The position numbers and the translations under genes were made by a program. A DNA stretch of 64,000 nt, from NCBI RefSeq assembly GCF_052324685.1, contig NC_135224.1:21847951-21911950 (forward strand), in the 5' to 3' direction. The notes beneath the pieces were generated by a model. The model saw nothing but the letters and a program-made list of their open reading frames with translations. It had not been told where the DNA came from and made no database searches. Below are positions 3,641-57,628 of this stretch, one piece after another; the stretch's first letter is position 1, and each line of letters starts with the position of its first letter. The stretch comes from Brachyhypopomus gauderio (Eukaryota > Chordata > Actinopteri > Gymnotiformes > Hypopomidae).

Positions 3641-3649
3641 TAATACATG

Positions 3650-4926: not shown

Positions 4927-5020
4927 ATTATGTTATGCACTGAGAATCTGTGACAGGACTACATTTTAAGTGATAGGTTTTATTAAAAATATCACTTGAT
5001 ATAGGAGGTATGAGGTAGGC

Positions 5021-5490: not shown

Positions 5491-5591
5491 ATTTAAAGAA
5501 AAAAAACTTAAATTACATTATATAAACATAAAGAAGTTGATTTACAGCCAAAACATTAAAGGATATGAATTATTTTCAAGAACAACATTGC

Positions 5592-6343: not shown

Positions 6344-7077
6344 TAGCTAGTGATGCATAATGTACAATTGAGTGGACAGATTATTAATCTGCATTTCCTT
6401 CGAATATCAAATAAAAGATTGAAAAGATGAATATATTTACATAATATGTCACTATAGATGTTACTTGATGTAATTATACTGTTTTCACTTGCAATGGTAT
6501 CATTTTATAGGATGTAGAAACAGAAATAGCCAAAGTGTTTGGTCTTTCTCCCTGTCTGTCGGCCATCTTTTTCCCATTGCAATGACCAGCCAATGGGATT
6601 TTATTTTTGTAATAGCTCCCACTAGAGTGGACCATATGTAGCAGTGCCCAAAATTTCAAGCATATATAGAGAAAAAACATTTCTAACCAGCTGTACACTG
6701 TAGTGACCTCTATGCATGAAAGAGTTTTAACCAGCAATAAGCAAAAATGGACAGACAAACAGCCATTAGGTGGCAAACTCACTAATGAGGGGCGGGAACC
6801 CAACAAAACAACACAAACACTGCTGCTAACGTAGGCAGCCATATACGGCTATATTAACAGTAATAAACGGGATCCAAATAAGGTGGGACTGGTCCAATCC
6901 TGCAGGTCTTCATACTTTGATAATGCGTTTTACAGAGATACGCATGCTGTTTGCTGGCATGTACCATAAGAGCTATGAAAAAGAGAAACATGCTTTTAAC
7001 TTAGAATATTTAAAAAATTACTTACAGTCTGTAATCGAATCTTTAAGTATGACAAATGAGAGGAAGTGAATGTGTAC

Positions 7078-7163
7078 CTCCTGAATGGCAGAGCTGATTA
7101 AACTTTCATTTAGCGGCACCTTCGTGTTGATTACACACCGCAGTCCAGCAACCACAGGGTACA
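7078..7163 (-). CDS. Mucin-like gene: SEA-like domain exon
   Basis: A minus-strand 86-nt exon lies between CTTTCAG (acceptor) and GTACAC (donor). It enters in phase 1, as every array exon leaves, and exits in phase 0. The joined codon is GTG, and the peptide runs [14 protein letters not shown], then [15 protein letters not shown]. The hydrophobic start, the alternating beta-strand-like pattern and the NES sequon resemble the first strand and helix of SEA-type modules that often follow PTS domains in mucins. The similarity is by eye only. A continuation exon should lie to the left but was not found. Confidence 0.5.
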
Positions 7164-10100
7164 CTGAAAGATCAAGGGTATATTGAACAAATCATTGATC
7201 TCATTTACATGGAGATCTATACATCTCATCCCTGATGTATAAGTCATTGTTGCAGATAAATCCAAGATGGAAACAAAGGTTCCTGCAGACCTAAACCATT
7301 CTTAGAAAACATTACAGTGACCAGAGATTTGACTAGAGGCTCTGGAGTTTCTCCACACTTATGTTGTTTACTGTAATTAGCAATAGAGTCGAGGGGGAGG
7401 GGGTTACATTTAAAAGTGTTAGTGGCTACAATCAACATATCTAGTGGTTGAGTTGCAGTCTGAGGGTTTATAGTTTGAGGTACAGTTGATGTCGAAGAAG
7501 TCTTTGAGGTCTAACACAACTTATCTAATCGAACTTTCTATCTAAATAGCTAGCTAGGGAACTTAATCAATAAAGCTCACTTGCAGGCAAAAACATCGTT
7601 TTATCATGCACTGGTCAATTTTGAGGTTTTAGGCTATTTTTGATTCCGTAACATGTCTTCTTTCAAACTGTTGGAAAGAAAATGTCCAAAATAAACATTT
7701 AGTTGTTTATTTATTTGGTTGAGCATGTAGATTTTTCCTAAATTCACAAAAAGTTAGCATTCTTAGGGAGCAGGAACCACCGCTCCTGTTATCTGTACCC
7801 TGTCATCATGGGTATCGTTGTAAAGCGCTCTCTCTCTCCTGCACGAGTTTATCCATATATTTGTAATTTCTATCAGCAACCAATCGTGAAAGAAAACAGG
7901 GTGATTTAAACGCAAGCTTGACATCTCATTGGCTGGTGTCGATTTCTGAGAACGTGATTCGTTCAGATGTCACGTGGTCACATGCCCTTACACTTCCTGG
8001 TTTAGCTTGTCAGTATCATTATAATCTAAAAATGCTGAAAGTAGTACTTTTAACAGCTTCTGACAATAATTGTCACTTGCGAGTAGAAGCAAGGGAAAAC
8101 TTGCAAAAATCAATTAAATAATGAAATGGTTACATGCAATGCATTGATGCGTAAGCTGTAAGTAGACTTTAGATAGCGGGGCAGACCAACATGCCACACA
8201 GCAAAGCGTGTTTGAAATAATGAATGGATTAATTCGTTATAATTGTATAGGTACAGGGCTTTAAATTTATATCAAACCACGGGTTTTGCAGCAGTTTGAT
8301 TTTAGAGTGCGGTCTGTGCAAAAGAGATGGGTACCGCAAAACTGTATATACATCTATGCGTCTTCAAGGTGTAACTAGGAAGGATGTCGCATTTGAAGTG
8401 ATCATGCGAATGGTGCTCTTAGCACACGAGTTAGGGTTGGGACATGCAAGATGTTGGGGATCCCTGTCCATCTCAGAGACATGACAATAGAGGTATGGGA
8501 CAGGGCCTACACAGAGACAAGAAGCTGATCCACAGAATAATAAAGTGCCATGTCCTTCAATAATTTGTTGTTTTACTTTTACCCTACAGATATTTTCTTT
8601 AGTGGCAGAATGGATAAAACTTACATAAACACATAAGATATTTTATGTTATGTAAAAGTAAAAAATAAATACACCTATTAATCATGAGGAGATGAACAGG
8701 TAGTGATATCCTGTACATTTAATTGTGTTGATAAATGCAGGGTTGAGGCAGCAGGTATGGCCATTTCTACCTTTAGTGAAGGTGCCTCTGCTAGGCTTTC
8801 TGATATGGAGAGGTTGTGGCTGCAGAGCAGTCTTACTGTCAATGTAATGAAGCTGATATGATCAGAGTATCAAAAGCAGAGGTTGTCACATCTGACACGT
8901 CTGCCAGCGCAAAACACAAGTTGTAAGACTCATGAGCATCATGAGGAAATGTGTGAGGGACCTACATATGGAGCAGGGATGGACCACTAGGTTATGCAGG
9001 ACAGACATACACCAATTTAGGGTGACAGTTCCACAGGCTGCAGTGTGTGTGCTCACGTGAACACGTTAAACTTAATTTAGTCATTACATTGTTCTGTTTT
9101 GCTGTTGTTTGTCCTTTTATTGTTGGTGATGCTCTATATCACTGCTGCTAATGTTATGATTAGGTTTTGAGTAAGTAAATAGTGGTCTCCAATACAAATG
9201 TATGAAATTTCAATATCTATTCAGTTCTCTTGCACATATATATATATATATATATATGAAATTTTCACTTTTATTAATATCTATATTCAGAAGGTTTTTA
9301 CAGAGGGAATTCTTCATATATCACCTTATGCCTAAAAACATGGCAAAAATAGATTTTTTTAAATTATGAGAGTATTTTCAGATTTATAAAGATTTATTGA
9401 TTTATTCCTTCTATAAAAACATTTGATTCTATTATGTTAACAAAATGTAGCATATCATTTTGATTAATTTGATTTGTGTATCTTTTGCATAATGATGGGC
9501 CTTCAGGGCCACTGTAGTCTATAGTAAAAAAGCATGTTATCCTAAACCAGTTGTAGAACATTTTACAAAAGCTGTTAAGCTGTGATTTTGCCACCAACAC
9601 TCTCCTTGTTTGCTTTAACAATAATGAGCATTTATTATATATCATATTGAGAATATAAATATCTTGTCAACATACCTAGTGGTTGTGTTGTGGTTGGAGT
9701 AGATGTAGTTTGAGGTGTAGTTGATGTCAAAGACCTTGTGGTGTCTATATTTCAGTGAGAAACAATAGGCATTATTTTTGCTTTCAGGTAAATCCTAGAT
9801 TTTATGATTCAGGTGATTCTAAAGCTGATGTCTGCAATAAAAACGCCTGCCATCCTAAACCAATTGTTAAACATTTTCTAAAAACGGTTGACCGTTTTCT
9901 AAAAACGGTTGTGATTTTGCCAAATACACTCTCCTCGTTTGCTTTAATTAACAATAAACTGCTATTTTCATATTTCATATTGAACATATACACAGATATT
10001 GTCAACATACTTAGTGGTTGTGTTGTGTTTTGAGGTGCAGTTGATCTCAAAGAGGTTGTGTTGTCTATATTTCAGAGAGAAACAAAAGTTATTAATTTTG

Positions 10101-13100
10101 CTTACAGGTAAATCCTAGATGTTATGATTCAGGTTATGCCAAAGTGTTTGTCTATAGTAAAAATGCCTGCCATCCTAAACCAATTGTTGAACATTTTATA
10201 ACCAATTGTTGAACATTTTATAAAAACTGTTGACCTCTGATTTTGACAAATACACCCTCCTTGTTTGCATTAAGTAACAATAAAGGACATTTTTCATATT
10301 TCATATTGAACATATAAAGATCTTGTCAACATACTTAGTGGTTGTGTTGTGTTTTGAGGTGCAGTTGATCTCAAAGAGGTTGTGGTGTCTATATTTCAGT
10401 GAGAAACAATAGTCATTATTTTTGCTTTCAGGTAAATCCTAGATTTTATGATTCAGGTGATTCTAAAGCTGATGTCTGCAATAAAAACGCCTGCCATCCT
10501 AAACCAATTGTTAAACATTTTCTAAAAACGGTTGACCGTTTTCTAAAAACGGTTGTGATTTTGCCAAATACACTCTCCTCGTTTGCTTTAATTAACAATA
10601 AACTGCAATTTTCATATTTCATATTGAACATATACACAGATATTGTCAACATACTTAGTGGTTGTGTTGTGTTTTGAGGTGCAGTTGATCTCAAAGAGGT
10701 TGTGTTGTCTATATTTCAGAGAGAAACAAAAGTTATTAATTTTGCTTACAGGTAAATCCTAGATGTTATGATTCAGGTTATGCCAAAGTGTTTGTCTATA
10801 GTAAAAATGCCTGCCATCCTAAACCAATTGTTGAACATTTTATAACCAATTGTTGAACATTTTATAAAAACTGTTGACCTCTGATTTTGACAAATACACC
10901 CTCCTTGTTTGCATTAAGTAACAATAAAGGACATTTTTCATATTTCATATTGAACATATAAAGATCTTGTCAACATACTTAGTGGTTGTGTTGTGTTTTG
11001 AGGTGCAGTTGATCTCAAAGAGGTTGTGGTTACTATATTTCAGTGAGAAACAATAGTTATTATTTTGCTTACAGGTAAATCCTAGATGTTATGCTTCAGG
11101 TGATGCTACAGCTCTTGTCTATATTCTAAAAGCCTGCCATCCTAAACCAATTGTTCAACATTTTACAAAAACTGTTGACCTCTGATTTTGCCACATACAC
11201 GCTCCTTGTTTGCTTTAATTAACAATAAACGGCATTTTTTATATTTTATATTGAACATATAAATATCTTGTCAACCAACCTGGTTGTTGTGTTGTGGTTG
11301 GAGTGAATGTAGTTGATGTACTTGATGTCGAAGAGGTTGTGGTGTCTACATTTCAGTGAGAAACAATAGTCATTATTTTTGCTGTCGGGTCAATTCTAGA
11401 TGTTGTGATTCAGGTGATGCTACAGCTCTTGTCTATATTAAAAAAGCCTGCCATCCTAAACCAATTGTTGAACATTTTATTAAAACTGTTGACCTGTGAT
11501 TTTGCCACATACACGCTCCTTGTTTGTTTTAATTAACAATAAATGGCATTTTTCATATTTCATATTGAACATAAAAATATCTTGTCAACATACCTGGTTG
11601 TTGTGTTGTGGTTGGAGTCAATGTAGTTGATGTACTTGATGTCGAAGAGGTTGTGGTGTCTACATTTCAGTGAGAAACAATAGTCATTATTTTTGCTTTC
11701 GGGTAAATCCTAAATGTTATGATTCAGGTGATGCTAAAGCTCTTGTCTAAATGCCTGCCATCCTAAAACAATAGTTAAACATTTTATAAAAACTGTTGAC
11801 CTGTGATTTTGCCACATACACGCTCCTTGTTTGTTTTAATTAACAATAAATGGCATTTTTCATATTTCATATTGAACATAAAAATATCTTGTCAACATAC
11901 CTGGTTGTTGTGTTGTGGTTGGAGTGAATGTAGTTGATGTACTTGATGTCGAAGAGGTTGTGGTGTCTACATTTCAGTGAGAAACAATAGTCATTTTTGC
12001 TTTCAGGTAAATCCTGGATGTTACGATTCATGTGATTCTAAAGGTCTTGTCTATAGTAAAAATGCCTGCCATCCTAAACCAATTGTTGAACATTTTATTA
12101 AAACTGTTGACCTGTGATTTTGCCACATACACGCTCCTTGTTTGTTTTAATTAACAATAAATGGCATTTTTCATATTTCATATTGAACATAAAAATATCT
12201 TGTCAACATACCTGGTTGTTGTGTTGTGGTTGGAGTGAATGTAGTTGATGTACTTGATGTCAAAGAGGTTGTGGTGTCTACATTTCAGTGAGAAACAATA
12301 GTCATTATTTTTGCTTTCGGGTAAATCCTAAATATTATGATTCAGGTGATGCTAAAGCTCTTGTCTAAATGCCTGCCATCCTAAAACAATAGTTAAACAT
12401 TTTATAAAAACTGTTGACCTGTGATTTTGCCACATACACGCTCCTTGTTTGTTTTAATTAACAATAAATGGCATTTTTCATATTTCATATTGAACATAAA
12501 AATATCTTGTCAACATACCTGGTTGTTGTGTTGTGGTTGGAGTGAATGTAGTTGGAGATGTAGTTGATGTCAAAGAGGTTGTGGTGTCTACATTTCAGTG
12601 AGAAACAATAGTCATTATTTTTGCTGTCGGGTCAATCTTAGATGTTATAATTCAGGTGATGCTACAGCTCTTGTCTATACTAAAAAATCCTGCCATCCTA
12701 AACCAATTGTTGAACATTTTATTAAAACTGTTGACCTGTGATTTTGCCACATACACGCTCCTTGTTTGCTTTAATTAACAATAAACGGCATTTTTTATAT
12801 TTTATATTGAACATATAAATATCTTGTGAACATACCTAGTGGTTGCGTTGTGGTTGGATTGAATGTTGTTGGAGATGTAGTTGATGTCAAAGAGGTTGTG
12901 GTGTCTACATTTCAGTGAGAAACAATAGTCATTATTTTTGCTGTCGGGTCAATCCTACATGTTATGATTCAGGTGATGCTACAGCTCTTGTCTATACTAA
13001 AACATCCTGCCATCCTAAACCAATTGTTGAACATTTTATTAAAACTGTTGACCTGTGATTTTGCCACATACACGCTCCTTGTTTGTTTTAATTAACAATA

Positions 13101-16100
13101 AATGGCATTTTTCATATTTCATATTGAACATAAAAATATCTTGTCAACATACCTGGTTGTTGTGTTGTGGTTGGAGTGAATGTAGTTGATGTACTTGATG
13201 TCGAAGAGGTTGTGGTGTCTACATTTCAGTGAGAAACAATAGTCATTATTTTTGCTTTCGGGTAAATCCTAAATGTTATGATTCAGGTGATGCTAAAGCT
13301 CTTGTCTAAATGCTCGCCATCCTAAAACAATAGTTAAACATTTTATAAAAACTGTTGACCTGTGATTTTGCCACATACACGCTCCTTGTTTGCTTTAATT
13401 AACAATAAACGGCATTTTTTATATTTTATATTGAACATATAAATATCTTGTCAACATACCTAGTGGTTGCGTTGTGGTTGGAGTGAATGTAGTTGGAGAT
13501 GTAGTTGATGTCAAAGAGGTTGTGGTGTCTACATTTCAGTGAGAAACAATAGCCATTATTTTTGCTGTCGGGTCAATCCTAGATGTTATGATTCAGGTGA
13601 TGCTACAGCTCTGTCTATACTAAAAAATCCTGCCATCCTAAACCAATTGTTGAACATTTTATTAAAACTGTTGACCTTTGATTTTGCCACATACATGCTC
13701 CTTGTTTGCTTTAATTAACAATAAACGGCATTTTTTATATTTTATATTGAACATATAAATATCTTGTCAACATACCTAGTGGTTGTGTTGTGGTTGGAGT
13801 GAATGTAGTTGGAGATGTAGTTGATGTCAAAGAGGTTGTGGTGTCTACATTTCAGTGAGAAACAATAGTTATTATTTTGCTTACAGGTAAATCCTAGATG
13901 TTATGCTTCAGGTGATGCTACAGCTCTTGTCTATATTCTAAAAGCCTGCCATCCTAAACCAATTGTTCAACATTTTACAAAAACTGTTGACCTCTGATTT
14001 TGCCACATACACGCTCCTTGTTTGCTTTAATTAACAATAAACGGCATTTTTTATATTTTATATTGAACATATAAATATCTTGTCAACCAACCTGGTTGTT
14101 GTGTTGTGGTTGGAGTGAATGTAGTTGATGTACTTGATGTCGAAGAGGTTGTGGTGTCTACATTTCAGTGAGAAACAATAGTCATTATTTTTGCTGTCGG
14201 GTCAATTCTAGATGTTGTGATTCAGGTGATGCTACAGCTCTTGTCTATATTAAAAAAGCCTGCCATCCTAAACCAATTGTTGAACATTTTATTAAAACTG
14301 TTGACCTGTGATTTTGCCACATACACGCTCCTTGTTTGTTTTAATTAACAATAAATGGCATTTTTCATATTTCATATTGAACATAAAAATATCTTGTCAA
14401 CATACCTGGTTGTTGTGTTGTGGTTGGAGTCAATGTAGTTGATGTACTTGATGTCGAAGAGGTTGTGGTGTCTACATTTCAGTGAGAAACAATAGTCATT
14501 ATTTTTGCTTTCGGGTAAATCCTAAATGTTATGATTCAGGTGATGCTAAAGCTCTTGTCTAAATGCCTGCCATCCTAAAACAATAGTTAAACATTTTATA
14601 AAAACTGTTGACCTGTGATTTTGCCACATACACGCTCCTTGTTTGTTTTAATTAACAATAAATGGCATTTTTCATATTTCATATTGAACATAAAAATATC
14701 TTGTCAACATACCTGGTTGTTGTGTTGTGGTTGGAGTGAATGTAGTTGATGTACTTGATGTCGAAGAGGTTGTGGTGTCTACATTTCAGTGAGAAACAAT
14801 AGTCATTTTTGCTTTCAGGTAAATCCTGGATGTTACGATTCATGTGATTCTAAAGGTCTTGTCTATAGTAAAAATGCCTGCCATCCTAAACCAATTGTTG
14901 AACATTTTATTAAAACTGTTGACCTGTGATTTTGCCACATACACGCTCCTTGTTTGTTTTAATTAACAATAAATGGCATTTTTCATATTTCATATTGAAC
15001 ATAAAAATATCTTGTCAACATACCTGGTTGTTGTGTTGTGGTTGGAGTGAATGTAGTTGATGTACTTGATGTCAAAGAGGTTGTGGTGTCTACATTTCAG
15101 TGAGAAACAATAGTCATTATTTTTGCTTTCGGGTAAATCCTAAATGTTATGATTCAGGTGATGCTAAAGCTCTTGTCTAAATGCCTGCCATCCTAAAACA
15201 ATAGTTAAACATTTTATAAAAACTGTTGACCTGTGATTTTGCCACATACACGCTCCTTGTTTGTTTTAATTAACAATAAATGGCATTTTTCATATTTCAT
15301 ATTGAACATAAAAATATCTTGTCAACATACCTGGTTGTTGTGTTGTGGTTGGAGTGAATGTAGTTGGAGATGTAGTTGATGTCAAAGAGGTTGTGGTGTC
15401 TACATTTCAGTGAGAAACAATAGTCATTATTTTTGCTGTCGGGTCAATCTTAGATGTTATAATTCAGGTGATGCTACAGCTCTTGTCTATACTAAAAAAT
15501 CCTGCCATCCTAAACCAATTGTTGAACATTTTATTAAAACTGTTGACCTGTGATTTTGCCACATACACGCTCCTTGTTTGCTTTAATTAACAATAAACGG
15601 CATTTTTTATATTTTATATTGAACATATAAATATCTTGTGAACATACCTAGTGGTTGCGTTGTGGTTGGATTGAATGTTGTTGGAGATGTAGTTGATGTC
15701 AAAGAGGTTGTGGTGTCTACATTTCAGTGAGAAACAATAGTCATTATTTTTGCTGTCGGGTCAATCCTACATGTTATGATTCAGGTGATGCTACAGCTCT
15801 TGTCTATACTAAAACATCCTGCCATCCTAAACCAATTGTTGAACATTTTATTAAAACTGTTGACCTGTGATTTTGCCACATACACGCTCCTTGTTTGTTT
15901 TAATTAACAATAAATGGCATTTTTCATATTTCATATTGAACATAAAAATATCTTGTCAACATACCTGGTTGTTGTGTTGTGGTTGGAGTGAATGTAGTTG
16001 ATGTACTTGATGTCGAAGAGGTTGTGGTGTCTACATTTCAGTGAGAAACAATAGTCATTATTTTTGCTTTCGGGTAAATCCTAAATGTTATGATTCAGGT

Positions 16101-19100
16101 GATGCTAAAGCTCTTGTCTAAATGCTCGCCATCCTAAAACAATAGTTAAACATTTTATAAAAACTGTTGACCTGTGATTTTGCCACATACACGCTCCTTG
16201 TTTGCTTTAATTAACAATAAACGGCATTTTTTATATTTTATATTGAACATATAAATATCTTGTCAACATACCTAGTGGTTGCGTTGTGGTTGGAGTGAAT
16301 GTAGTTGGAGATGTAGTTGATGTCAAAGAGGTTGTGGTGTCTACATTTCAGTGAGAAACAATAGCCATTATTTTTGCTGTCGGGTCAATCCTAGATGTTA
16401 TGATTCAGGTGATGCTACAGCTCTGTCTATACTAAAAAATCCTGCCATCCTAAACCAATTGTTGAACATTTTATTAAAACTGTTGACCTTTGATTTTGCC
16501 ACATACATGCTCCTTGTTTGCTTTAATTAACAATAAACGGCATTTTTTATATTTTATATTGAACATATAAATATCTTGTCAACATACCTAGTGGTTGTGT
16601 TGTGGTTGGAGTGAATGTAGTTGGAGATGTAGTTGATGTCAAAGAGGTTGTGGTGTCTACATTTCAGTTAGAAACAATAGTCTTTATTTTTCTTTCAGGT
16701 AAATCCTAGATGTTACGATTCATGTGATTCTAAAGGTCTTGTCTATAGTAAAAATGCCTGCCATCCTAAACCAATTGTTGAACATTTTATTAAAACTGTT
16801 GACCTGTGATTTTGCCACATACACCATCCTTGTTTGTTTGTTTTAATTAACAATTAAATGCATTCCTTATATTTCATATTGAACATAAAAATAACTTGTC
16901 GACATACCTAGTGGTTGCGTTGTGGTTGGAGTGAATGTAGTTGGAGATGTAGTTGATGTCAAAGAGGTTGTGGTGTCTACATTTCAGTGAGAAACAATAG
17001 TCATTATTTTTGCTGTCGGGTCAATCCTAGATGTTATGATTCAGGTGATGCTAAAGCTCTTGTCTAAATGCCTGCCATCCTAAAACAATAGTTAAACATT
17101 TTATAAAAACTGTTGACCTGTGATTTTGCCACATACACCCTCCTTGTTTGTTTTAATTAACAATAAAATGCATTTATTATATTTCATATTGAAAATATAA
17201 ATATTTTGTCAACATACCTGGTTGTTGTGTTGTGGTTGGAGTGAATGTAGTTGATGTACTTGATGCCGAAGAGGTTGTGGTGTCTACATTTCAGTGAGAA
17301 ACAATAGTCATTATTTTTGCTTTCGGGTAAATCCTAAATGTTATAATTCAGGTGATGCTACAGCTCTTGTCTAAATGCCTGCCATCCTAAAACAATTGTT
17401 GAACATTTTATAAAAACTGTTGACCTGAGATTTTGCCACATACACCCTCCTTGTTTGTTTGTTTTAATTAACAATAAAATGCATTTATTATATTTCATAT
17501 TGAAAATATAAATATTTTGTCAACATACCTGGTTGTTGTGTTGTGGTTGGAGTGAATGTAGTTGATGTACTTGATGCCGAAGAGGTTGTGGTGTCTACAT
17601 TTCAGTGAGAAACAATAGTCTTTATTTTTGCTTTCAGGTAAATCCTGGATGTTACGATTCATGTGATTCTAAAGGTCTTGTCTATAGTAAAAATGCCTGC
17701 CATCCTAAACCAATTGTTGAACATTTTATTAAAACTGTTGACCTGTGATTTTGCCACATACACGCTCCTTGTTTGCTTTAATTAACAATAAACGGCATTT
17801 TTTATATTTTATATTGAACAAATAAATATCTTGTCAACATACCTAGTGGTTGCGTTGTGGTTGGAGTGAATGTAGTTGGAGATGTAGTTGATGTCAAAGA
17901 GGTTGTGGTGTCTACATTTCAGTGAGAAACAATAGTCATTATTTTTGCTGTCGGGTCAATCCTAGATGTTATGATTCAGGTGATGCTACAGCTCTTGTCT
18001 ATACTAAAAAAGCCTGCCATCCTAAACCAATTGTTGAACATTTTATTAAAACTGTTGACCTGTGATTTTGCCACATACACGCTCCTTGTTTGCTTTAATT
18101 AACAATAAACGGCATTTTTTATATTTTATAATGAACATATAAATATCTTGTCAACATACCTAGTGGTTGCGTTGTGGTTGGAGTGAATGTAGTTGATGTA
18201 CTTGATGTCGAAGAGGTTGTGGTGTCTACATTTCAGTGAGAAACAATAGTCATTATTTTTGCTGTCGGGTCAATCCTAGATGTTGTGATTCAGGTGATGC
18301 TACAGCTCTTGTCTATACTAAAAAAGCCTGCCATCCTAAACCAATTGTTGAACATTTTATTAAAACTGTTGACCTGTGATTTTGCCACATACACGCTCCT
18401 TGTTTGCTTTAATTAACAATAAACGGCATTTTTTATATTTTATATTGAACATATAAATATCTTGTCAACCAACCTGGTTGTTGTGTTGTGGTTGGAGTGA
18501 ATGTAGTTGATGTACTTGATGTCAAAGAGGTTGTGGTGTCTACATTTCAGTGAGAAACAATAGTCATTATTTTTGCTGTCGGGTCAATCCTAGATGTTAT
18601 GATTCAGGTGATGCTACAGCTCTTGTCTATACTAAAAAAGCCTGCCATCCTAAACCAATTGTTGAACATTTTATTAAAACTGTTGACCTGTGATTTTGCC
18701 ACATACACGCTCCTTGTTTGCTTTAATTAACAATAAACGGCATTTTTTATATTTTATATTGAACATATAAATATCTTGTCAACATACCTAGTGGTTGCGT
18801 TGTGGTTGGAGTGAATGTAGTTGATGTACTTGATGTCAAAGAGGTTGTGGTGTCTACATTTCAGTGAGAAACAATAGTCATTATTTTTGCTGTCGGGTCA
18901 ATCCTAGATGTTATGATTCAGGTGATGCTACAGCTCTTGTCTATACTAAAAAATCCTGCCATCCTAAACCAATTGTTGAACATTTTATTAAAACTGTTGA
19001 CCTGTGATTTTGCCACATACACGCTCCTTGTTTGCTTTAATTAACAATAAACGGCATTTTTTATATTTTATATTGAACATATAAATATCTTGTCAACATA

Positions 19101-22100
19101 CCTAGTGGTTGCGTTGTGGTTGGAGTGAATGTAGTTGATGTACTTGATGTCGAAGAGGTTGTGGTGTCTACATTTCAGTGAGAAACAATAGTCATTATTT
19201 TTGCTGTCGGGTCAATCCTAGATGTTATGATTCATGTGATTCTAAAGGTCTTGTCTATAGTAAAAATGCCTGCCATCCTAAACCAATTGTTGAACATTTT
19301 ATTAAAACTGTTGACCTGTGATTTTGCCACATACACGCTCCTTGTTTGTTTTAATTAACAATAAATGGCATTTTTCATATTTCATATTGAACATAAAAAT
19401 ATCTTGTCAACATACCTGGTTGTTGTGTTGTGGTTGGAGTGAATGTAGTTGATGTACTTGATGTCGAAGAGGTTGTGGTGTCTACATTTCAGTGAGAAAC
19501 AATAGTCATTATTTTTGCTGTCGGGTCAATCCTAGACGTTGTGTTTCAGGTGATGCTACAGCTCTTGTCTATACTAAAAAAGCCTGCCATCCTAAACCAA
19601 TTGTTGAACATTTTATTAAAACTGTTGACCTGTGATTTTGCCACATACACGCTCCTTGTTTGCTTTAATTAACAATAAACGGCATTTTTTATATTTTATA
19701 ATGAACATATAAATATCTTGTCAACATACCTAGTGGTTGCGTTGTGGTTGGAGTGAATGTAGTTGATGTACTTGATGTCGAAGAGGTTGTGGTGTCTACA
19801 TTTCAGTGAGAAACAATAGTCATTATTTTTGCTGTCGGGTCAATCCTAGATGTTATGATTCAGGTGATGCTACAGCTCTTGTCTATACTAAAAAAGCCTG
19901 CCATCCTAAACCAATTGTTGAACATTTTATTAAAACTGTTGACCTGTGATTTTGCCACATACACGCTCCTTGTTTGCTTTAATTAACAATAAACAGCATT
20001 TTTTATATTTTATATTGAACATATAAATATCTTGTCAACATACCTAGTGGTTGCGTTGTGGTTGGAGTGAATGTAGTTGATGTACTTGATGTCGAAGAGG
20101 TTGTGGTGTCTACATTTCAGTGAGAAACAATAGTCATTATTTTTGCTGTCGGGTCAATCCTAGATGTTGTGATTCAGGTGATGCTACAGCTCTTGTCTAT
20201 ACTAAAAAAGCCTGCCATCCTAAACCAATTGTTGAACATTTTATTAAAACTGTTGACCTGTGATTTTGCCACATACACGCTCCTTGTTTGCTTTAATTAA
20301 CAATAAACGGCATTTTTTATATTTTATATTGAACATATAAATATCTTGTCAACCAACCTGGTTGTTGTGTTGTGGTTGGAGTGAATGTAGTTGATGTACT
20401 TGATGTCGAAGAGGTTGTGGTGTCTACATTTCAGTGAGAAACAATAGTCATTATTTTTGCTGTCGGGTCAATTCTAGATGTTGTGATTCAGGTGATGCTA
20501 CAGCTCTTGTCTATATTAAAAAAGCCTGCCATCCTAAACCAATTGTTGAACATTTTATTAAAACTGTTGACCTGTGATTTTGCCACATACACGCTCCTTG
20601 TTTGTTTTAATTAACAATAAATGGCATTTTTCATATTTCATATTGAACATAAAAATATCTTGTCAACATACCTGGTTGTTGTGTTGTGGTTGGAGTCAAT
20701 GTAGTTGATGTACTTGATGTCGAAGAGGTTGTGGTGTCTACATTTCAGTGAGAAACAATAGTCATTATTTTTGCTTTCGGGTAAATCCTAAATGTTATGA
20801 TTCAGGTGATGCTAAAGCTCTTGTCTAAATGCCTGCCATCCTAAAACAATAGTTAAACATTTTATAAAAACGGTTGACCTGTGATTTTGCCACATACACG
20901 CTCCTTGTTTGTTTTAATTAACAATAAATGGCATTTTTCATATTTCATATTGAACATAAAAATATCTTGTCAACATACCTGGTTGTTGTGTTGTGGTTGG
21001 AGTGAATGTAGTTGATGTACTTGATGTCAAAGAGGTTGTGGTGTCTACATTTCAGTGAGAAACAATAGTCATTATTTTTGCTGTCGGGTCAATCCTAGAT
21101 GTTATGATTCAGGTGATGCTACAGCTCTTGTCTATACTAAAAAAGCCTGCCATCCTAAACCAATTGTTGAACATTTTATTAAAACTGTTGACCTATGATT
21201 TTGCCACATACACGCTCCTTGTTTGCTTTAATTAACAATAAACGGCATTTTTTATATTTTATATTGAACATATAAATATCTTGTCAACATACCTAGTGGT
21301 TGCGTTGTGGTTGGAGTGAATGTAGTTGATGTACTTGATGTCAAAGAGGTTGTGGTGTCTACATTTCAGTGAGAAACAATAGTCATTATTTTTGCTGTCG
21401 GGTTAATCCTAGATGTTATGATTCAGGTGATGCTACAGCTCTTGTCTATACTAAAAAATCCTGCCATCCTAAACCAATTGTTGAACATTTTATTAAAACT
21501 GTTGACCTGTGATTTTGCCACATACACGCTCCTTGTTTGCTTTAATTAACAATAAACGGCATTTTTTATATTTTATATTGAACATATAAATATCTTGTCA
21601 ACATACCTAGTGGTTGCGTTGTGGTTGGAGTGAATGTAGTTGATGTACTTGATGTCAAAGAGGTTGTGGTGTCTACATTTCAGTGAGAAACAATAGTCAT
21701 TATTTTTGCTGTCGGGTCAATCCTAGATGTTATGATTCATGTGATTCTAAAGGTCTTGTCTATAGTAAAAATGCCTGCCATCCTAAACCAATTGTTGAAC
21801 ATTTTATTAAAACTGTTGACCTGTGATTTTGCCACATACACGCTCCTTGTTTGTTTTAATTAACAATAAATGGCATTTTTCATATTTCATATTGAACATA
21901 AAAATATCTTGTCAACATACCTGGTTGTTGTGTTGTGGTTGGAGTGAATGTAGTTGATGTACTTGATGTCGAAGAGGTTGTGGTGTCTACATTTCAGTGA
22001 GAAACAATAGTCATTATTTTTGCTGTCGGGTCAATCCTAGATGTTATGATTCAGGTGATGCTACAGCTCTTGTCTATACTAAAAAAGCCTGCCATCCTAA

Positions 22101-25100
22101 ACCAATTGTTGAACATTTTATTAAAACTGTTGACCTGTGATTTTGCCACATACACGCTCCTTGTTTGCTTTAATTAACAATAAACGGCATTTTTTATATT
22201 TTATATTGAACATATAAATATCTTGTCAACATACCTAGTGGTTGCGTTGTGGTTGGAGTGAATGTAGTTGATGTACTTGATGTCAAAGAGGTTGTGGTGT
22301 CTACATTTCAGTGAGAAACAATAGTCATTATTTTTGCTGTCGGGTCAAGCCTAGATGTTATGATTCAGGTGATGCTACAGCTCTTGTCTATACTAAAAAA
22401 TCCTGCCATCCTAAACCAATTGTTGAACATTTTATTAAAACTGTTGACCTGTGATTTTGCCACATACACGCTCCTTGTTTGCTTTAATTAACAATAAACG
22501 GCATTTTTTATATTTTATATTGAACATATAAATATCTTGTCAACATACCTAGTGGTTGCGTTGTGGTTGGAGTGAATGTAGTTGATGTACTTGATGTCAA
22601 AGAGGTTGTGGTGTCTACATTTCAGTGAGAAACAATAGTCATTATTTTTGCTGTCGGGTCAATCCTAGATGTTATGATTCATGTGATTCTAAAGGTCTTG
22701 TCTATAGTAAAAATGCCTGCCATCCTAAACCAATTGTTGAACATTTTATTTAAACTGTTGACCTGTGATTTTGCCACATACACGCTCCTTGTTTGTTTTA
22801 ATTAACAATAAATGGCATTTTTCATATTTCATATTGAACATAAAAATATCTTGTCAACATACCTGGTTGTTGTGTTGTGGTTGGAGTCAATGTAGTTGAT
22901 GTACTTGATGTCGAAGAGGTTGTGGTGTCTACATTTCAGTGAGAAACAATAGTCATTATTTTTGCTTTCGGGTAAATCCTAAATGTTATGATTCAGGTGA
23001 TGCTAAAGCTCTTGTCTAAATGCCTGCCATCCTAAAACAATAGTTAAACATTTTATAAAAACTGTTGACCTGTGATTTTGCCACATACACGCTCCTTGTT
23101 TGTTTTAATTAACAATAAATGGCATTTTTCATATTTCATATTGAACATAAAAATATCTTGTCAACATACCTGGTTGTTGTGTTGTGGTTGGAGTGAATGT
23201 AGTTGATGTACTTGATGTCGAAGAGGTTGTGGTGTCTACATTTCAGTGAGAAACAATAGTCATTATTTTTGCTGTCGGGTCAATCCTAGATGTTGTGATT
23301 CAGGTGATGCTACAGCTCTTGTCTATACTAAAAAAGCCTGCCATCCTAAACCAATTGTTGAACATTTTATTAAAACTGTTGACCTGTGATTTTGCCACAT
23401 ACACGCTCCTTGTTTGCTATAATTAACAATAAACGGCATTTTTTATATTTTATATTGAACATATAAATATCTTGTCAACCAACCTGGTTGTTGTGTTGTG
23501 GTTGGAGTGAATGTAGTTGATGTACTTGATGTCGAAGAGGTTGTGGTGTCTACATTTCAGTGAGAAACAATAGTCATTATTTTTGCTGTCGGGTCAATTC
23601 TAGATGTTGTGATTCAGGTGATGCTACAGCTCTTGTCTATATTAAAAAAGCCTGCCATCCTAAACCAATTGTTGAACATTTTATTAAAACTGTTGACCTG
23701 TGATTTTGCCACATACACGCTCCTTGTTTGTTTTAATTAACAATAAATGGCATTTTTCATATTTCATATTGAACATAAAAATATCTTGTCAACATACCTG
23801 GTTGTTGTGTTGTGGTTGGAGTCAATGTAGTTGATGTACTTGATGTCGAAGAGGTTGTGGTGTCTACATTTCAGTGAGAAACAATAGTCATTATTTTTGC
23901 TTTCGGGTAAATCCTAAATGTTATGATTCAGGTGATGCTAAAGCTCTTGTCTAAATGCCTGCCATCCTAAAACAATAGTTAAACATTTTATAAAAACTGT
24001 TGACCTGTGATTTTGCCACATACACGCTCCTTGTTTGCTTTAATTAACAATAAACGGCATTTTTTATATTTTATATTGAACATATAAATATCTTGTCAAC
24101 ATACCTAGTGGTTGCGTTGTGGTTGGAGTGAATGTAGTTGATGTACTTGATGTCAAAGAGGTTGTGGTGTCTACATTTCAGTGAGAAACAATAGTCATTA
24201 TTTTTGCTGTCGGGTCAATCCTAGATGTTGTGATTCAGGTGATGCTACAGCTCTTGTCTATACTAAAAAAGCCTGCCATCCTAAACCAATTGTTGAACAT
24301 TTTATTAAAACTGTTGACCTGTGATTTTGCCACATACACGCTCCTTGTTTGCTATAATTAACAATAAACGGCATTTTTTATATTTTATATTGAACATATA
24401 AATATCTTGTCAACCAACCTGGTTGTTGTGTTGTGGTTGGAGTGAATGTAGTTGATGTACTTGATGTCGAAGAGGTTGTGGTGTCTACATTTCAGTGAGA
24501 AACAATAGTCATTATTTTTGCTGTCGGGTCAATTCTAGATGTTGTGATTCAGGTGATGCTACAGCTCTTGTCTATATTAAAAAAGCCTGCCATCCTAAAC
24601 CAATTGTTGAACATTTTATTAAAACTGTTGACCTGTGATTTTGCCACATACACGCTCCTTGTTTGTTTTAATTAACAATAAATGGCATTTTTCATATTTC
24701 ATATTGAACATAAAAATATCTTGTCAACATACCTGGTTGTTGTGTTGTGGTTGGAGTCAATGTAGTTGATGTACTTGATGTCGAAGAGGTTGTGGTGTCT
24801 ACATTTCAGTGAGAAACAATAGTCATTATTTTTGCTTTCGGGTAAATCCTAAATGTTATGATTCAGGTGATGCTAAAGCTCTTGTCTAAATGCCTGCCAT
24901 CCTAAAACAATAGTTAAACATTTTATAAAAACTGTTGACCTGTGATTTTGCCACATACACGCTCCTTGTTTGTTTTAATTAACAATAAATGGCATTTTTC
25001 ATATTTCATATTGAACATAAAAATATCTTGTCAACATACCTGGTTGTTGTGTTGTGGTTGGAGTGAATGTAGTTGATGTACTTGATGTCGAAGAGGTTGT

Positions 25101-28100
25101 GGTGTCTACATTTCAGTGAGAAACAATAGTCATTTTTGCTTTCAGGTAAATCCTGGATGTTACGATTCATGTGATTCTAAAGGTCTTGTCTATAGTAAAA
25201 ATGCCTGCCATCCTAAACCAATTGTTGAACATTTTATTAAAACTGTTGACCTGTGATTTTGCCACATACACGCTCCTTGTTTGTTTTAATTAACAATAAA
25301 TGGCATTTTTCATATTTCATATTGAACATAAAAATATCTTGTCAACATACCTGGTTGTTGTGTTGTGGTTGGAGTCAATGTAGTTGATGTACTTGATGTC
25401 GAAGAGGTTGTGGTGTCTACATTTCAGTGAGAAACAATAGTCATTATTTTTGCTTTCGGGTAAATCCTAAATGTTATGATTCAGGTGATGCTAAAGCTCT
25501 TGTCTAAATGCCTGCCATCCTAAAACAATAGTTAAACATTTTATAAAAACTGTTGACCTGTGATTTTGCCACATACACGCTCCTTGTTTGTTTTAATTAA
25601 CAATAAATGGCATTTTTCATATTTCATATTGAACATAAAAATATCTTGTCAACATACCTGGTTGTTGTGTTGTGGTTGGAGTGAATGTAGTTGATGTACT
25701 TGATGTCGAAGAGGTTGTGGTGTCTACATTTCAGTGAGAAACAATAGTCATTATTTTTGCTGTCGGGTCAATCCTAGATGTTATGATTCAGGTGATGCTA
25801 CAGCTCTTGTCTATACTAAAAAAGCCTGCCATCCTAAACCAATTGTTGAACATTTTATTAAAACTGTTGACCTGTGATTTTGCCACATACACGCTCCTTG
25901 TTTGTTTTAATTAACAATAAATGGCATTTTTCATATTTCATATTGAACATAAAAATATCTTGTCAACATACCTGGTTGTTGTGTTGTGGTTGGAGTGAAT
26001 GTAGTTGATGTACTTGATGTCGAAGAGGTTGTGGTGTCTACATTTCAGTGAGAAACAATAGTCATTATTTTTGCTGTCGGGTCAATCCTAGATGTTATGA
26101 TTCAGGTGATGCTACAGCTCTTGTCTATACTAAAAAAGCCTGCCATCCTAAACCAATTGTTGAACATTTTATTAAAACTGTTGACCTGTGATTTTGCCAC
26201 ATACACGCTCCTTGTTTGCTTTAATTAACAATAAACGGCATTTTTTATATTTTATATTGAACATATAAATATCTTGTCAACATACCTAGTGGTTGCGTTG
26301 TGGTTGAAGTGAATGTAGTTGATGTACTTGATGTCAAAGAGGTTGTGGTGTCTACATTTCAGTGAGAAACAATAGTCATTATTTTTGCTGTCGGGTCAAG
26401 CCTAGATGTTATGATTCAGGTGATGCTACAGCTCTTGTCTATACTAAAAAATCCTGCCATCCTAAACCAATTGTTGAACATTTTATTAAAACTGTTGACC
26501 TGTGATTTTGCCACATACACGCTCCTTGTTTGCTTTAATTAACAATAAACGGCATTTTTTATATTTTATATTGAACATATAAATATCTTGTCAACATACC
26601 TAGTGGTTGCGTTGTGGTTGGAGTGAATGTAGTTGATGTACTTGATGTCAAAGAGGTTGTGGTGTCTACATTTCAGTGAGAAACAATAGTCATTATTTTT
26701 GCTGTCGGGTCAATCCTAGATGTTATGATTCATGTGATTCTAAAGGTCTTGTCTATAGTAAAAATGCCTGCCATCCTAAACCAATTGTTGAACATTTTAT
26801 TTAAACTGTTGACCTGTGATTTTGCCACATACACGCTCCTTGTTTGTTTTAATTAACAATAAATGGCATTTTTCATATTTCATATTGAACATAAAAATAT
26901 CTTGTCAACATACCTGGTTGTTGTGTTGTGGTTGGAGTGAATGTAGTTGATGTACTTGATGTCGAAGAGGTTGTGGTGTCTACATTTCAGTGAGAAACAA
27001 TAGTCATTATTTTTGCTGTCGGGTCAATCCTAGATGTTGTGATTCAGGTGATGCTACAGCTCTTGTCTATACTAAAAAAGCCTGCCATCCTAAACCAATT
27101 GTTGAACATTTTATTAAAACTGTTGACCTGTGATTTTGCCACATACACGCTCCTTGTTTGCTTTAATTAACAATAAACGGCATTTTTTATATTTTATATT
27201 GAACATATAAATATCTTGTCAACCAACCTGGTTGTTGTGTTGTGGTTGGAGTGAATGTAGTTGATGTACTTGATGTCGAAGAGGTTGTGGTGTCTACATT
27301 TCAGTGAGAAACAATAGTCATTATTTTTGCTGTCGGGTCAATTCTAGATGTTGTGATTCAGGTGATGCTAAAGCTCTTGTCTATATTAAAAAAGCCTGCC
27401 ATCCTAAACCAATTGTTGAACATTTTATTAAAACTGTTGACCTGTGATTTTGCCACATACACGCTCCTTGTTTGTTTTAATTAACAATAAATGGCATTTT
27501 TCATATTTCATATTGAACATAAAAATATCTTGTCAACATACCTGGTTGTTGTGTTGTGGTTGGAGTCAATGTAGTTGATGTACTTGATGTCGAAGAGGTT
27601 GTGGTGTCTACATTTCAGTGAGAAACAATAGTCATTATTTTTGCTTTCGGGTAAATCCTAAATGTTATGATTCAGGTGATGCTAAAGCTCTTGTCTAAAT
27701 GCCTGCCATCCTAAAACAATAGTTAAACATTTTATAAAAACTGTTGACCTGTGATTTTGCCACATACACGCTCCTTGTTTGTTTTAATTAACAATAAATG
27801 GCATTTTTCATATTTCATATTGAACATAAAAATATCTTGTCAACATACCTGGTTGTTGTGTTGTGGTTGGAGTGAATGTAGTTGATGTACTTGATGTCGA
27901 AGAGGTTGTGGTGTCTACATTTCAGTGAGAAACAATAGTCATTTTTGCTTTCAGGTAAATCCTGGATGTTACGATTCATGTGATTCTAAAGGTCTTGTCT
28001 ATAGTAAAAATGCCTGCCATCCTAAACCAATTGTTGAACATTTTATTAAAACTGTTGACCTGTGATTTTGCCACATACACGCTCCTTGTTTGTTTTAATT

Positions 28101-31100
28101 AACAATAAATGGCATTTTTCATATTTCATATTGAACATAAAAATATCTTGTCAACATACCTGGTTGTTGTGTTGTGGTTGGAGTCAATGTAGTTGATGTA
28201 CTTGATGTCGAAGAGGTTGTGGTGTCTACATTTCAGTGAGAAACAATAGTCATTATTTTTGCTTTCGGGTAAATCCTAAATGTTATGATTCAGGTGATGC
28301 TAAAGCTCTTGTCTAAATGCCTGCCATCCTAAAACAATAGTTAAACATTTTATAAAAACTGTTGACCTGTGATTTTGCCACATACACGCTCCTTGTTTGT
28401 TTTAATTAACAATAAATGGCATTTTTCATGTTTCATATTGAACATAAAAATATCTTGTCAACATACCTGGTTGTTGTGTTGTGGTTGGAGTGAATGCAGT
28501 TGATGTAGTTGATGTCAAAGAGGTTGTGGTGTCTACATTTCAGTGAGAAACAATAGTCATTATTTTTGCTGTCGGGTCAATCCTAGATGTTATGATTCAG
28601 GTGATGCTACAGCTCTTGTCTATACTAAAAAAGCCTGCCATCCTAAACCAATTGTTGAACATTTTATTAAAACTGTTGACCTGTGATTTTGCCACATACA
28701 CGCTCCTTGTTTGTTTTAATTAACAATAAATGGCATTTTTCATATTTCATATTGAACATAAAAATATCTTGTCAACATACCTGGTTGTTGTGTTGTGGTT
28801 GGAGTCAATGTAGTTGATGTACTTGATGTCGAAGAGGTTGTGGTGTCTACATTTCAGTGAGAAACAATAGTCATTATTTTTGCTGTCGGGTAAATCCTAA
28901 ATGTTATGATTCAGGTGATGCTAAAGCTCTTGTCTAAATGCCTGCCATCCTAAACCAATTGTTGAACATTTTATTAAAACTGTTGACCTGTGATTTTGCC
29001 ACATACACGCTCCTTGTTTGTTTTAATTAACAATAAATGGCATTTTTCATATTTCATATTGAACATAAAAATATCTTGTCAACATACCTGGTTGTTGTGT
29101 TGTGGTTGGAGTGAATGTAGTTGATGTACTTGATGTCAAAGAGGTTGTGGTGTCTACATTTCAGTGAGAAACAATAGTCATTATTTTTGCTGTCGGGTCA
29201 ATCCTAGATGTTATGATTCAGGTGATGCTACAGCTCTTGTCTATACTAAAAAAGCCTGCCATCCTAAACCAATTGTTGAACATTTTATTAAAACTGTTGA
29301 CCTGTGATTTTGCCACATACACGCTCCTTGTTTGCTTTAATTAACAATAAACGGCATTTTTTATATTTTATATTGAACATATAAATATCTTGTCAACATA
29401 CCTAGTGGTTGCGTTGTGGTTGGAGTGAATGTAGTTGATGTACTTGATGTCAAAGAGGTTGTGGTGTCTACATTTCAGTGAGAAACAATAGTCATTATTT
29501 TTGCTGTCGGGTCAATCCTAGATGTTATGATTCAGGTGATGCTACAGCTCTTGTCTATACTAAAAAATCCTGCCATCCTAAACCAATTGTTGAACATTTT
29601 ATTAAAACTGTTGACCTGTGATTTTGCCACATACACGCTCCTTGTTTGCTTTAATTAACAATAAACGGCATTTTTTATATTTTATATTGAACATATAAAT
29701 ATCTTGTCAACATACCTAGTGGTTGCGTTGTGGTTGGAGTGAATGTAGTTGATGTACTTGATGTCAAAGAGGTTGTGGTGTCTACATTTCAGTGAGAAAC
29801 AATAGTCATTATTTTTGCTGTCGGGTCAATCCTAGGTGTTATGATTCATGTGATTCTAAAGGTCTTGTCTATAGTAAAAATGCCTGCCATCCTAAACCAA
29901 TTGTTGAACATTTTATTTAAACTGTTGACCTGTGATTTTGCCACATACACGCTCCTTGTTTGTTTTAATTAACAATAAATGGCATTTTTCATATTTCATA
30001 TTGAACATAAAAATATCTTGTCAACATACCTGGTTGTTGTGTTGTGGTTGGAGTGAATGTAGTTGATGTACTTGATGTCGAAGAGGTTGTGGTGTCTACA
30101 TTTCAGTGAGAAACAATAGTCATTATTTTTGCTGTCGGGTCAATCCTAGATGTTGTGATTCAGGTGATGCTACAGCTCTTGTCTATACTAAAAAAGCCTG
30201 CCATCCTAAACCAATTGTTGAACATTTTATTAAAACTGTTGACCTGTGATTTTGCCACATACACGCTCCTTGTTTGCTTTAATTAACAATAAACGGCATT
30301 TTTTATATTTTATATTGAACATATAAATATCTTGTCAACCAACCTGGTTGTTGTGTTGTGGTTGGAGTGAATGTAGTTGATGTACTTGATGTCGAAGAGG
30401 TTGTGGTGTCTACATTTCAGTGAGAAACAATAGTCATTATTTTTGCTGTCGGGTCAATTCTAGATGTTGTGATTCAGGTGATGCTACAGCTCTTGTCTAT
30501 ATTAAAAAAGCCTGCCATCCTAAACCAATTGTTGAACATTTTATTAAAACTGTTGACCTGTGATTTTGCCACATACACGCTCCTTGTTTGTTTTAATTAA
30601 CAATAAATGGCATTTTTCATATTTCATATTGAACATAAAAATATCTTGTCAACATACCTGGTTGTTGTGTTGTGGTTGGAGTGAATGTAGTTGATGTACT
30701 TGATGTCGAAGAGGTTGTGGTGTCTACATTTCAGTGAGAAACAATAGTCATTTTTGCTTTCGGGTAAATCCTAAATGTTATGATTCAGGTGATGCTAAAG
30801 CTCTTGTCTAAATGCCTGCCATCCTAAAACAATAGTTAAACATATTATAAAAACTGTTGACCTGTGATTTTGCCACATACACGCTCCTTGTTTGTTTTAA
30901 TTAACAATAAATGCCATTTTTCATATTTCATATTGAACATAAAAATATCTTGTCAACATACCTGGTTGTTGTGTTGTGGTTGGAGTGAATGTAGTTGGAG
31001 ATGTAGTTGATGTCAAAGAGGTTGTGGTGTCTACATTTCAGTGAGAAACAATAGTCATTATTTTTGCTGTCGGGTCAATCCTAGATGTTATAATTCAGGT

Positions 31101-34100
31101 GATGCTACAGCTCTTGTCTATACTAAAAAATCCTGCCATCCTAAACCAATTGTTGAACATTTTATTAAAACTGTTGACCTGTGATTTTGCCACATACACG
31201 CTCCTTGTTTGCTTTAATTAACAATAAACGGCATTTTTTATATTTTATATTGAACATATAAATATCTTGTGAACATACCTAGTGGTTGCGTTGTGGTTGG
31301 ATTGAATGTTGTTGGAGATGTAGTTGATGTCAAAGAGGTTGTGGTGTCTACATTTCAGTGAGAAACAATAGTCATTATTTTTGCTGTCGGGTCAATCCTA
31401 CATGTTATGATTCAGGTGATGCTACAGCTCTTGTCTATACTAAAACATCCTGCCATCCTAAACCAATTGTTGAACATTTTATTAAAACTGTTGACCTGTG
31501 ATTTTGCCACATACACGCTCCTTGTTTGTTTTAATTAACAATAAATGGCATTTTTCATATTTCATATTGAACATAAAAATATCTTGTCAACATACCTGGT
31601 TGTTGTGTTGTGGTTGGAGTGAATGTAGTTGATGTACTTGATGTCGAAGAGGTTGTGGTGTCTACATTTCAGTGAGAAACAATAGTCATTATTTTTGCTT
31701 TCGGGTAAATCCTAAATGTTATGATTCAGGTGATGCTAAAGCTCTTGTCTAAATGCCTGCCATCCTAAAACAATAGTTAAACATTTTATAAAAACTGTTG
31801 ACCTGTGATTTTGCCACATACACGCTCCTTGTTTGCTTTAATTAACAATAAACGGCATTTTTTATATTTTATATTGAACATATAAATATCTTGTCAACAT
31901 ATCTAGTGGTTGCGTTGTGGTTGGAGTGAATGTAGTTGGAGATGTAGTTGATGTCAAAGAGGTTGTGGTGTCTACATTTCAGTGAGAAACAATAGTCATT
32001 ATTTTTGCTGTCGGGTCAATCCTAGATGTTATGATTCAGGTGATGCTACAGCTCTTGTCTATACTAAAACATCCTGCCATCCTAAACCAATTGTTGAACA
32101 TTTTATTAAAACTGTTGACCTGTGATTTTGCCACATACACGCTCCTTGTTTGCTTTAATTAACAATAAACGGCATTTTTTATATTTTATATTGAACATAT
32201 AAATATCTTGTCAACATACCTAGTGGTTGCGTTGTGGTTGGAGTGAATGTAGTTGGAGATGTAGTTGATGTCAAAGAGGTTGTGGTGTCTACATTTCAGT
32301 TAGAAACAATAGTCTTTATTTTTCTTTCAGGTAAATCCTAGATGTTACGATTCATGTGATTCTAAAGGTCTTGTCTATAGTAAAAATGCCTACCATCCTA
32401 AACCAATTGTTGAACATTTTATTAAAACTGTTGACCTGTGATTTTGCCACATACACCATCCTTGTTTGTTTGTTTTAATTAACAATTAAATGCATTCCTT
32501 ATATTTCATATTGAACATAAAAATAACTTGTCGACATACCTAGTGGTTGCGTTGTGGTTGGAGTGAATGTAGTTGGAGATGTAGTTGATGTCAAAGAGGT
32601 TGTGGTGTCTACATTTCAGTTAGAAACAATAGTCTTTATTTTTACTTTGTCATGCCTGCCTCCTCCCATCATAACACTCTAGTTTTTAAACTACAAACTA
32701 GAGTTTTGTTATACAGTATCTCATGAAGTAGAATGGGACTGAATTATTAAAGCTATTTAAATGTAGCTAAATACCTAGATAATTAAGCATGAAAGGTCTT
32801 TTAAGTTTTCTCTTAGTTTTCATTAAAATAGCTAGCTAGCAAGCTACATTTACAGCAAGCTACATAAAGGGCAATACTTTTTTTTTTTACATTTTTACAT
32901 TTAAAAATCTTTACTCATCCCTTCTGGTTCAACTAAATGAGCTGCTGTATAATACAACTCTTGTTTCAGGACAAAAACCTGCAGATTATTCTGCTTGTTA
33001 TTCACAATAGTTGTTATACAATGTAAAGTTTTTTATATCATCTTTAAAACCTACAAAGTCCCTGTGTAAAATAATTCATCCCGAAACACTTCCATTATGT
33101 TGTGACTGGATTTGCAGCATTTCTGAATTTGCAGCGCATTTCTAAAATGTAGCATACCCAATATCATTTTGATTAATTTACTTTGCGTATCTTTTGCATT
33201 GCAATGGGCTTTCAGGGCCACCGTAGTCTATAGTTTTAAAAAGCCTGTTATCCTAAACCAATTTTAGAACATTTTACAAAACCTATTGTGTTCTGATTAC
33301 ACCCTACTTGTTTGCTTTAATTAACAATAAAGGGTATTTTTCATATTTCATATTGAAATATAAATATCTTGTCAACATACCTGGTAGTGGTGTTGTGGTC
33401 TGAGGGTATGTAGTTTGAGGCACAGTTGGTGTTAAAGAGGTGGCGGTCTCTACATTTCAGTAAGAATCAATAATCATTATTTTTGTTTTCAGATAAATCC
33501 TAGATGTTATGATTCAGGTCTTGCAAAAGTTGTCTATAGTAAAAAAGCCTGTTATCCTAAACCAATTTTAGAACATTTTACAAAACAAAATCTTTTGAAC
33601 TTTGCTATTGCCACATACACTCTTCTTGACAAATTTGATTAAAAATAAAGTGCATTTTTACTAACAAAACATGTTTATGTTACTACAGTTTAGTTTTATA
33701 TAGATAGATAGAGACAGACAGACAAAAATAGGTTTCCAGACAAAAACCTTGCATCAGTACAGAGAGGTCTGCAACACATCACAATTTACAGAACATCCCA
33801 AACTACAGAAGACTGCTGAGGCAAACTAGTTGACAATCTGAATGTCTTCTACTGCAGAGGGACTCCAGCCCTAGAAGAAGAAACCCTGCCTCATTGGACT
33901 GAATGATTCTGTCCTGTCAGCCTCACATCTGTGGCCAGGAAGTCATTTGAACATCTGTAGTCAGTACACATCACATGACCACAAGCAGTGCAGGTAGGCA
34001 AACATTTCACAGCCACCCTCACTCTTAGCACAGGTGTTCCCCAGGGTTGTGCCCTGGGCCCCCTGCTGTAATCACTGCATACCTACAAGTTCGAGGCCAC

Positions 34101-42247: not shown

Positions 42248-57628
<15,381 letters not shown>

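Follow-up and report, generated by a model that had tools for sequence, protein, structure and literature searches.

A tandem array of predicted Ser/Thr-rich mini-exons

The window analysed here, a 64,000-nt stretch of contig C14 (positions 21847951-21911950) in the 796-Mb Brachyhypopomus gauderio genome, contains a long tandem array of short, Ser/Thr-rich open segments with the layout of mucin mini-exons; positions below are those of the window unless a contig is named. Tandem Repeats Finder (TRF) reported a period of 314 bp, with 69.8 copies and 93% matches, at 10844-32643, and an acceptor-anchored search of the minus strand resolved 75 units. The exons of 74 of these units, spaced 307-324 bp apart, start between 32608 and 9744, and the array of exon-plus-intron units of ~314 bp each occupies 9676-32608 on the minus strand. 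An earlier sequence-only reading had announced about 74 minus-strand mini-exons in ~314-bp units, an observation that is here confirmed and extended by a 75th, outlying and diverged unit. The exon of that unit (33381-33449, minus strand; 69 nt, 23 residues) has an intact AG acceptor and GTATGT donor and sits 841 bp before the first array unit, beyond the span given in the earlier reading.

The same reading had described exons that are usually 66 nt long, usually followed by GTATGT and symmetric in phase 1-1, and all three properties hold. The exon length is 66 nt in 54 of the 75 units, 69 nt in 17 and 54 nt in four; an acceptor AG is present in all 75, and the donor is GTATGT in 66, GTTGGT in eight and ATATGT in one, giving GT in 74/75. 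All 75 exon lengths are multiples of three and all 75 exons are stop-free when read in phase 1. Most introns between successive array exons (71/73) are not multiples of three, the commonest lengths being 248 and 241 bp. A representative 66-nt mini-exon (20044-20109, minus strand) encodes 22 residues, and the main 22-residue peptide occurs in 22 units, with close variants in others. The unit with ATATGT in place of GTATGT lies at 31903-31971 (minus strand), and all four 54-nt exons fall within 10011-11032 (minus strand; starts at 11032, 10708, 10388 and 10064), where the donors are weaker, with an A before GTATGT. In the joined translation the first residue of a mini-exon, assumed to be G, turns to N after the 54-nt exons.

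Conceptual joining of the 74 exons in 9676-32608 gives 1628 residues, 1112 of them Ser or Thr, close to the ~1,600 residues and ~1,100 Ser/Thr that had been estimated for full inclusion. All 75 exons, including that at 31971 despite its non-GT donor, yield 1651 residues with 1122 Ser/Thr (68%), 168 Pro and no stop. The predicted 75-repeat translation is thus made up of tandem Ser/Thr/Pro-rich repeats, the property by which the proline/threonine/serine-rich (PTS) domains of mucin-type proteins are recognised. Candidate exons with at least 60% Ser/Thr were found in none of 1500 random one-strand units of 314 bp, and the Ser/Thr richness of the array exons is far beyond chance.

The exon motif, with up to three mismatches allowed, matched 71 times in the whole genome, always within the array, and its reversed control gave no match. 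An intron query of the genome matched only the diverged neighbourhood of 33449, in a search that skips very common words and so leaves the array itself unlisted. A dispersed repeat was rejected on these two results. A scan of the minus strand below 42300 for Ser/Thr-rich exons gave, outside the array, a single candidate with a Ser/Thr/Pro content above one half, the exon at 33449.

A candidate first exon upstream of the array

The gene upstream of the array on the same strand is CCDC39 (Pfam CCDC39, E 1.5e-11, open reading frame (ORF) 46163-46612), the last part of which was recognised by eye near 42563. Just beyond it, again on the minus strand and 8.2 kb upstream of the first of the 75 units, lies a proposed first coding exon (41630-41684) with 18 signal-peptide-like residues, which ends in phase 1 before a GTACGT donor (score 9.3). 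The putative signal peptide was called from hydropathy and splice score, and the exon would be linked to the array by its matching phase. Screening of 258 kb of the flanking strand returned two signal-peptide-like phase-1 exons, of which this one is the more hydrophobic (hydropathy 3.0 vs 2.3), and it is present in a single copy in the genome. The ORF enclosing it had no Pfam match at E 0.01. When the signal peptide was searched together with two repeats, a single Pfam family, New_glue, matched weakly (E 0.081; 13.1 bits vs a cut-off of 31), which was taken as a reflection of composition only.

Mucin-like gene or non-coding satellite

We consider it probable that the array forms the repeat domain in a gene on the minus strand, the product of which would be a mucin-like protein, either secreted or at the cell surface. 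This mini-exon interpretation receives partial support in silico from the symmetric phases, the mucin-like composition and the phase-matched signal-peptide-like exon. In the proposed gene, exon 1 would encode the signal peptide and supply the first base of a split codon; the ~75 mini-exons would each enter with two bases, encode 18-23 residues, two thirds of them Ser/Thr, and end with one base, and the matching phases would allow any number of mini-exons to be joined in frame. We infer from the sequence that such a gene would be transcribed and spliced with the signal-like exon linked to the array, would have its own 3′ end and would yield an O-glycosylated product.

Weighing against this reading are several results from the 3′ side, the splice pattern and the substitutions. 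The last intact array exon is 9744-9676. Beyond it, we found a weak candidate exon A (7026-7163, minus strand; 138 nt, phase 1-1, GTAAGT donor) and a weak candidate terminal exon B (6854-6972, minus strand; acceptor score 10.5), which ends in a stop. Exons of A quality occur 10 times and those of B quality 16 times in the 258 kb of strand, A and B included, a rate weakly better than chance, and both are therefore treated as leads only. Neither has a Pfam or PDB match, and neither has a relative in the genome at E < 0.01, the hits besides themselves being one at E 0.014, which holds stops, and one at E 0.316. Among the 20 of 101 minus-strand ORFs (at least 28 residues, positions 1-9800) scanned with Pfam, no recognisable C-terminal domain was found; the two weak matches, ApbA and SspN, are both far below their cut-offs.

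As to the splice pattern, 40.6% of the 1500 random units hold an open AG..GT exon of 45-120 nt with a length divisible by three, and 10.3% hold an exon with splice scores like those of the GTATGT units, so that the pattern alone is unremarkable. The plus strand of the units carries a recurrent open 57-nt phase-1 pseudo-exon (19 residues in its main reading) running from TTTCAG to CAG/GTGAT, of which there are 62 candidates whose splice scores are acceptable. In a motif search, 55 of the 70 acceptors on that strand were followed by a segment that is divisible by three and ends in CAG/GTGAT. This pseudo-exon is probably a product of chance, yet it warns against readings based on splice patterns. 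A second frame of the mini-exons is also stop-free in 75/75 (the third has stops in 51), and for that reason it matters that the phase of the signal-like exon would select the Ser/Thr frame.

The sequence-only reading had named exons evolving no differently from introns as an outcome that would overturn it. For substitutions this is nearly the case: the 33449 unit differs from a core unit at 20/66 exon and 44/241 intron sites (18%), more strongly in the exon than in the introns, and synonymous changes (2/18, 1/7 and 1/18 in three comparisons) do not exceed a random-change control. The 9744 unit differs from a core unit at 9/66 exon and 30/241 intron sites (12% for the intron). Within 69 core units, variants are fewer in exons (11 in 66 columns) than in introns (75 in 241 columns), which would favour the coding reading, but the difference is not significant (p 0.09). 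With no synonymous excess and no slower exon change among the old units, a substitution-based coding signature was rejected. For indels the outcome differs, as both exon indels are multiples of three compared with 3 of 13 intron positions (hand-computed Fisher p ~0.1), several of the 13 coming from one poorly aligned unit. In a random-substitution control, the chance of retaining Ser/Thr/Pro was 0.0007 from 33449 to 9744, 0.14 from core to 33449 and 0.29 from core to 9744; retention was not relied on as a coding signature, the probability being small in only one of the three pairs. Mucin repeats are expected to drift in sequence while keeping their composition, and neutral-looking substitutions therefore fit a mucin without proving one.

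The neutral appearance of the exon substitutions would also suit a non-coding satellite. In that case an old mucin exon, together with its introns, would have been tandemly amplified and homogenised without a working transcript, and the frames would still be open only owing to the youth and similarity of the copies. The homogenised core (median pair identity 0.925), the donor lost at 31971, the four weak donors and the pseudo-exon on the other strand point the same way, as does a relic exon at 7441-7510 (minus strand), whose length counted from the nearest AG, 70 nt, is not divisible by three and whose donor reads ATATGT, so that both frame and donor are lost. We nevertheless regard a satellite as unlikely: the strand of the array bears, further upstream, a signal-peptide-like exon of matching phase; units 33449 and 9744, at the diverged edges, have kept their frame, their length of 69 nt and their acceptor and donor, whereas in the relic frame and donor were lost together; and the exon indels are in frame. 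The mucin-like gene thus remains our preferred reading of the array.

Comparison with known exon-per-repeat and mucin genes

Like the array, conventional mucin PTS domains consist of tandem repeats rich in Thr, Ser and Pro for which O-glycosylation is expected; they lie in one large exon, whereas here every repeat is interrupted by an intron. The sequence-only reading had taken one giant exon as the expected layout for mucin repeats, which needs correcting, as the PTS repeats of chicken Muc13 are described in separate exons (PMC1552070). Its repeats, numbering at least 12 and each 20 residues long, occupy one exon apiece and have support from expressed sequence tags; in 2006 the authors suggested that splicing controls PTS length (PMC1552070). 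Chicken Muc13 is like the predicted array in having a signal sequence followed by near-identical repeats, one per exon (20 residues vs 18-23 here), and unlike it in repeat number (at least 12, with an assembly gap, vs 75 predicted here). The exon-per-repeat design is therefore already known, and the array is an extreme variant of it, whose interest lies mainly in its size and in what it could reveal about length control by splicing. In the open-licence literature, judged by titles and abstract openings, we found neither a mucin array of comparable size nor a paper testing splice-controlled length in a mucin with one repeat per exon.

The shared design, with a signal peptide and then the PTS region, raises the question of a local Muc13 orthologue, that is, a transmembrane mucin whose PTS domain is spread over many exons; the chicken authors also mention, as unpublished, a zebrafish Muc13 with several PTS exons (PMC1552070). 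Muc13 as described there has SEA, transmembrane and tail regions, none of which was recognised at the array locus, and in seabream the repeat region of muc13 is described as followed by SEA and EGF domains (PMC11035888). A genome-wide search that scored 23 candidates gave eight SEA matches at E up to 0.1, none of them on C14, a negative that relies on the Pfam model and that a more diverged SEA domain could escape, and the scanned left-flank ORFs (20/101) contain no SEA, EGF or other credible domain. The Pfam-confirmed neighbour of the array is CCDC39, whereas chicken and mammalian Muc13 adjoin HEG (PMC1552070). Membership of the predicted gene in Muc13 is thus not supported by these sequence comparisons, and orthology appears improbable.

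Two of the SEA matches, at C30:461711 and C30:464175 (overlapping loci L030 and L031), lie 2.5 kb apart, with one Ser/Thr-rich open stretch of 330 nt (TTRETSTHPTSTSES repeats) between them on the same strand, present in both loci; this stretch is a conventional contrast, within the same genome, to the mini-exon array. A pair of SEA matches on C7 was considered as Muc13 and dismissed, its ORFs suggesting, by eye, a serine protease that carries LDL-receptor class A repeats.

Mucins of the Xenopus FIM-A.1/C.1 type are secreted, as is likewise proposed here for a secreted or surface product, but they carry trefoil domains, whereas the array locus has no trefoil match: of 44 trefoil matches genome-wide, none is on C14. 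The VWD domain, a mark of gel-forming mucins, was absent from the window among the matches listed (at least 160 genome-wide; 150 of 262 candidates scored). A run of 25 trefoil matches on one strand, regularly spaced ~3.9 kb apart, was observed at C9:13190090-13284383; it represents a tandemly amplified trefoil gene, perhaps of egg-envelope type.

Tandem amplification of symmetric exons is also described in other fish genes. Phase-0 zinc-finger exons of 0.7-1.35 kb are present in 8 to 16 copies in piccolo b (PMC3484663), and in zebrafish zonadhesin the repeated unit is a phase-1 group of 17 VWD exons (PMC1325057). Both share with the array the tandem amplification of a symmetric exon or exon group together with its introns, and the zonadhesin groups also share its phase 1, but neither is a mucin mini-exon array.

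Growth of the array and protein length

The 73 full units include 50 distinct ones, and comparison of units at different offsets gave the best shift at nine units, where 15 of 59 pairs are more than 98.5% identical. The units at 33449 and 9744, each taken with its following intron, are diverged and 79% alike to one another, and thus seem to mark the former margins of a block that was expanding. The natural reading of this pattern is growth by unequal exchange or replication slippage with block duplication: the unit of exon plus ~248-bp intron would have been multiplied, frequently several units at a time, and the two outermost units would preserve a form that is older and has diverged further.

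By analogy with other mucins, changes in length would come with more certainty from differing unit numbers among individuals than from splicing. As a conjecture, possible though doubtful, one allele might in addition produce a ladder of protein lengths, from fewer than 100 to more than 1,650 residues, by exon skipping among the ~75 exons, tuned by tissue or condition and superimposed on individual differences in unit number. If transcribed, the array would show exon-by-exon encoding of a mucin domain on an extreme scale and be a natural test of splicing across ~75 near-identical exons and introns, and it would separate DNA copy number from RNA exon choice as sources of mucin length.

Gene neighbourhood and other repeats

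Besides CCDC39, a UBA-domain ORF (Pfam), which we take to be DCUN1D1-like, lies upstream on the same strand as the array, and the neighbourhood resembles a segment of human chromosome 3q. Human LAMP3 has a Ser/Thr-rich region, and the two same-strand neighbours led us to consider that the array might be the repeat domain of another gene, such as one for a LAMP3-like protein. However, of 13 Lamp2-like_luminal matches in the genome, none is in the window and the nearest on C14 is ~9 Mb away; a LAMP3-like gene placed by synteny was rejected for lack of a LAMP match near the array, and we regard an origin in such a gene as very improbable. To the left of the window, plus-strand ORFs resemble, by eye, an amino-acid transporter and RIPK2.

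The interval from the signal-like exon to the first unit contains, on the plus strand, long interspersed nuclear element (LINE) reverse transcriptase, THAP and BED domains, and an intron joining the two would therefore be transposon-invaded. These elements span 36643-40910, in the order BED zinc finger, THAP domain with an adjoining 21-bp minisatellite (SSPGSLA-type reading) and LINE reverse transcriptase. The same 21-bp minisatellite, of AGTGAGCACACACATACCC type, flanks the THAP region at 36121-36257 and 38389-38480, with copies up to 89% alike. On the minus strand, a UnaL2 LINE 3′ element (34715-34768) adjoins a tRNA-like element (34832-34904), and together they resemble a tRNA-derived short interspersed nuclear element with a LINE tail.

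Frames of Tc1/Sleeping Beauty-type transposases occur on the plus strand at 50099-51138 and 5000-5593; the part at 50099-50584 matches Pfam HTH_Tnp_Tc3_2 and HTH_SB, and the remainder and 5000-5593 were recognised by eye. A very long minisatellite-like region at C14:21767951-21807950 (L021-L024; TRF was run on L022 only) shows nested periods of 14, 28 and 42 bp with repeated open frames (MDAGESTQLSGRRREY...). Finally, a 20-bp minisatellite of ~41 copies lies inside the CCDC39 gene region, at 47341-48150, and has long open stretches in several frames.

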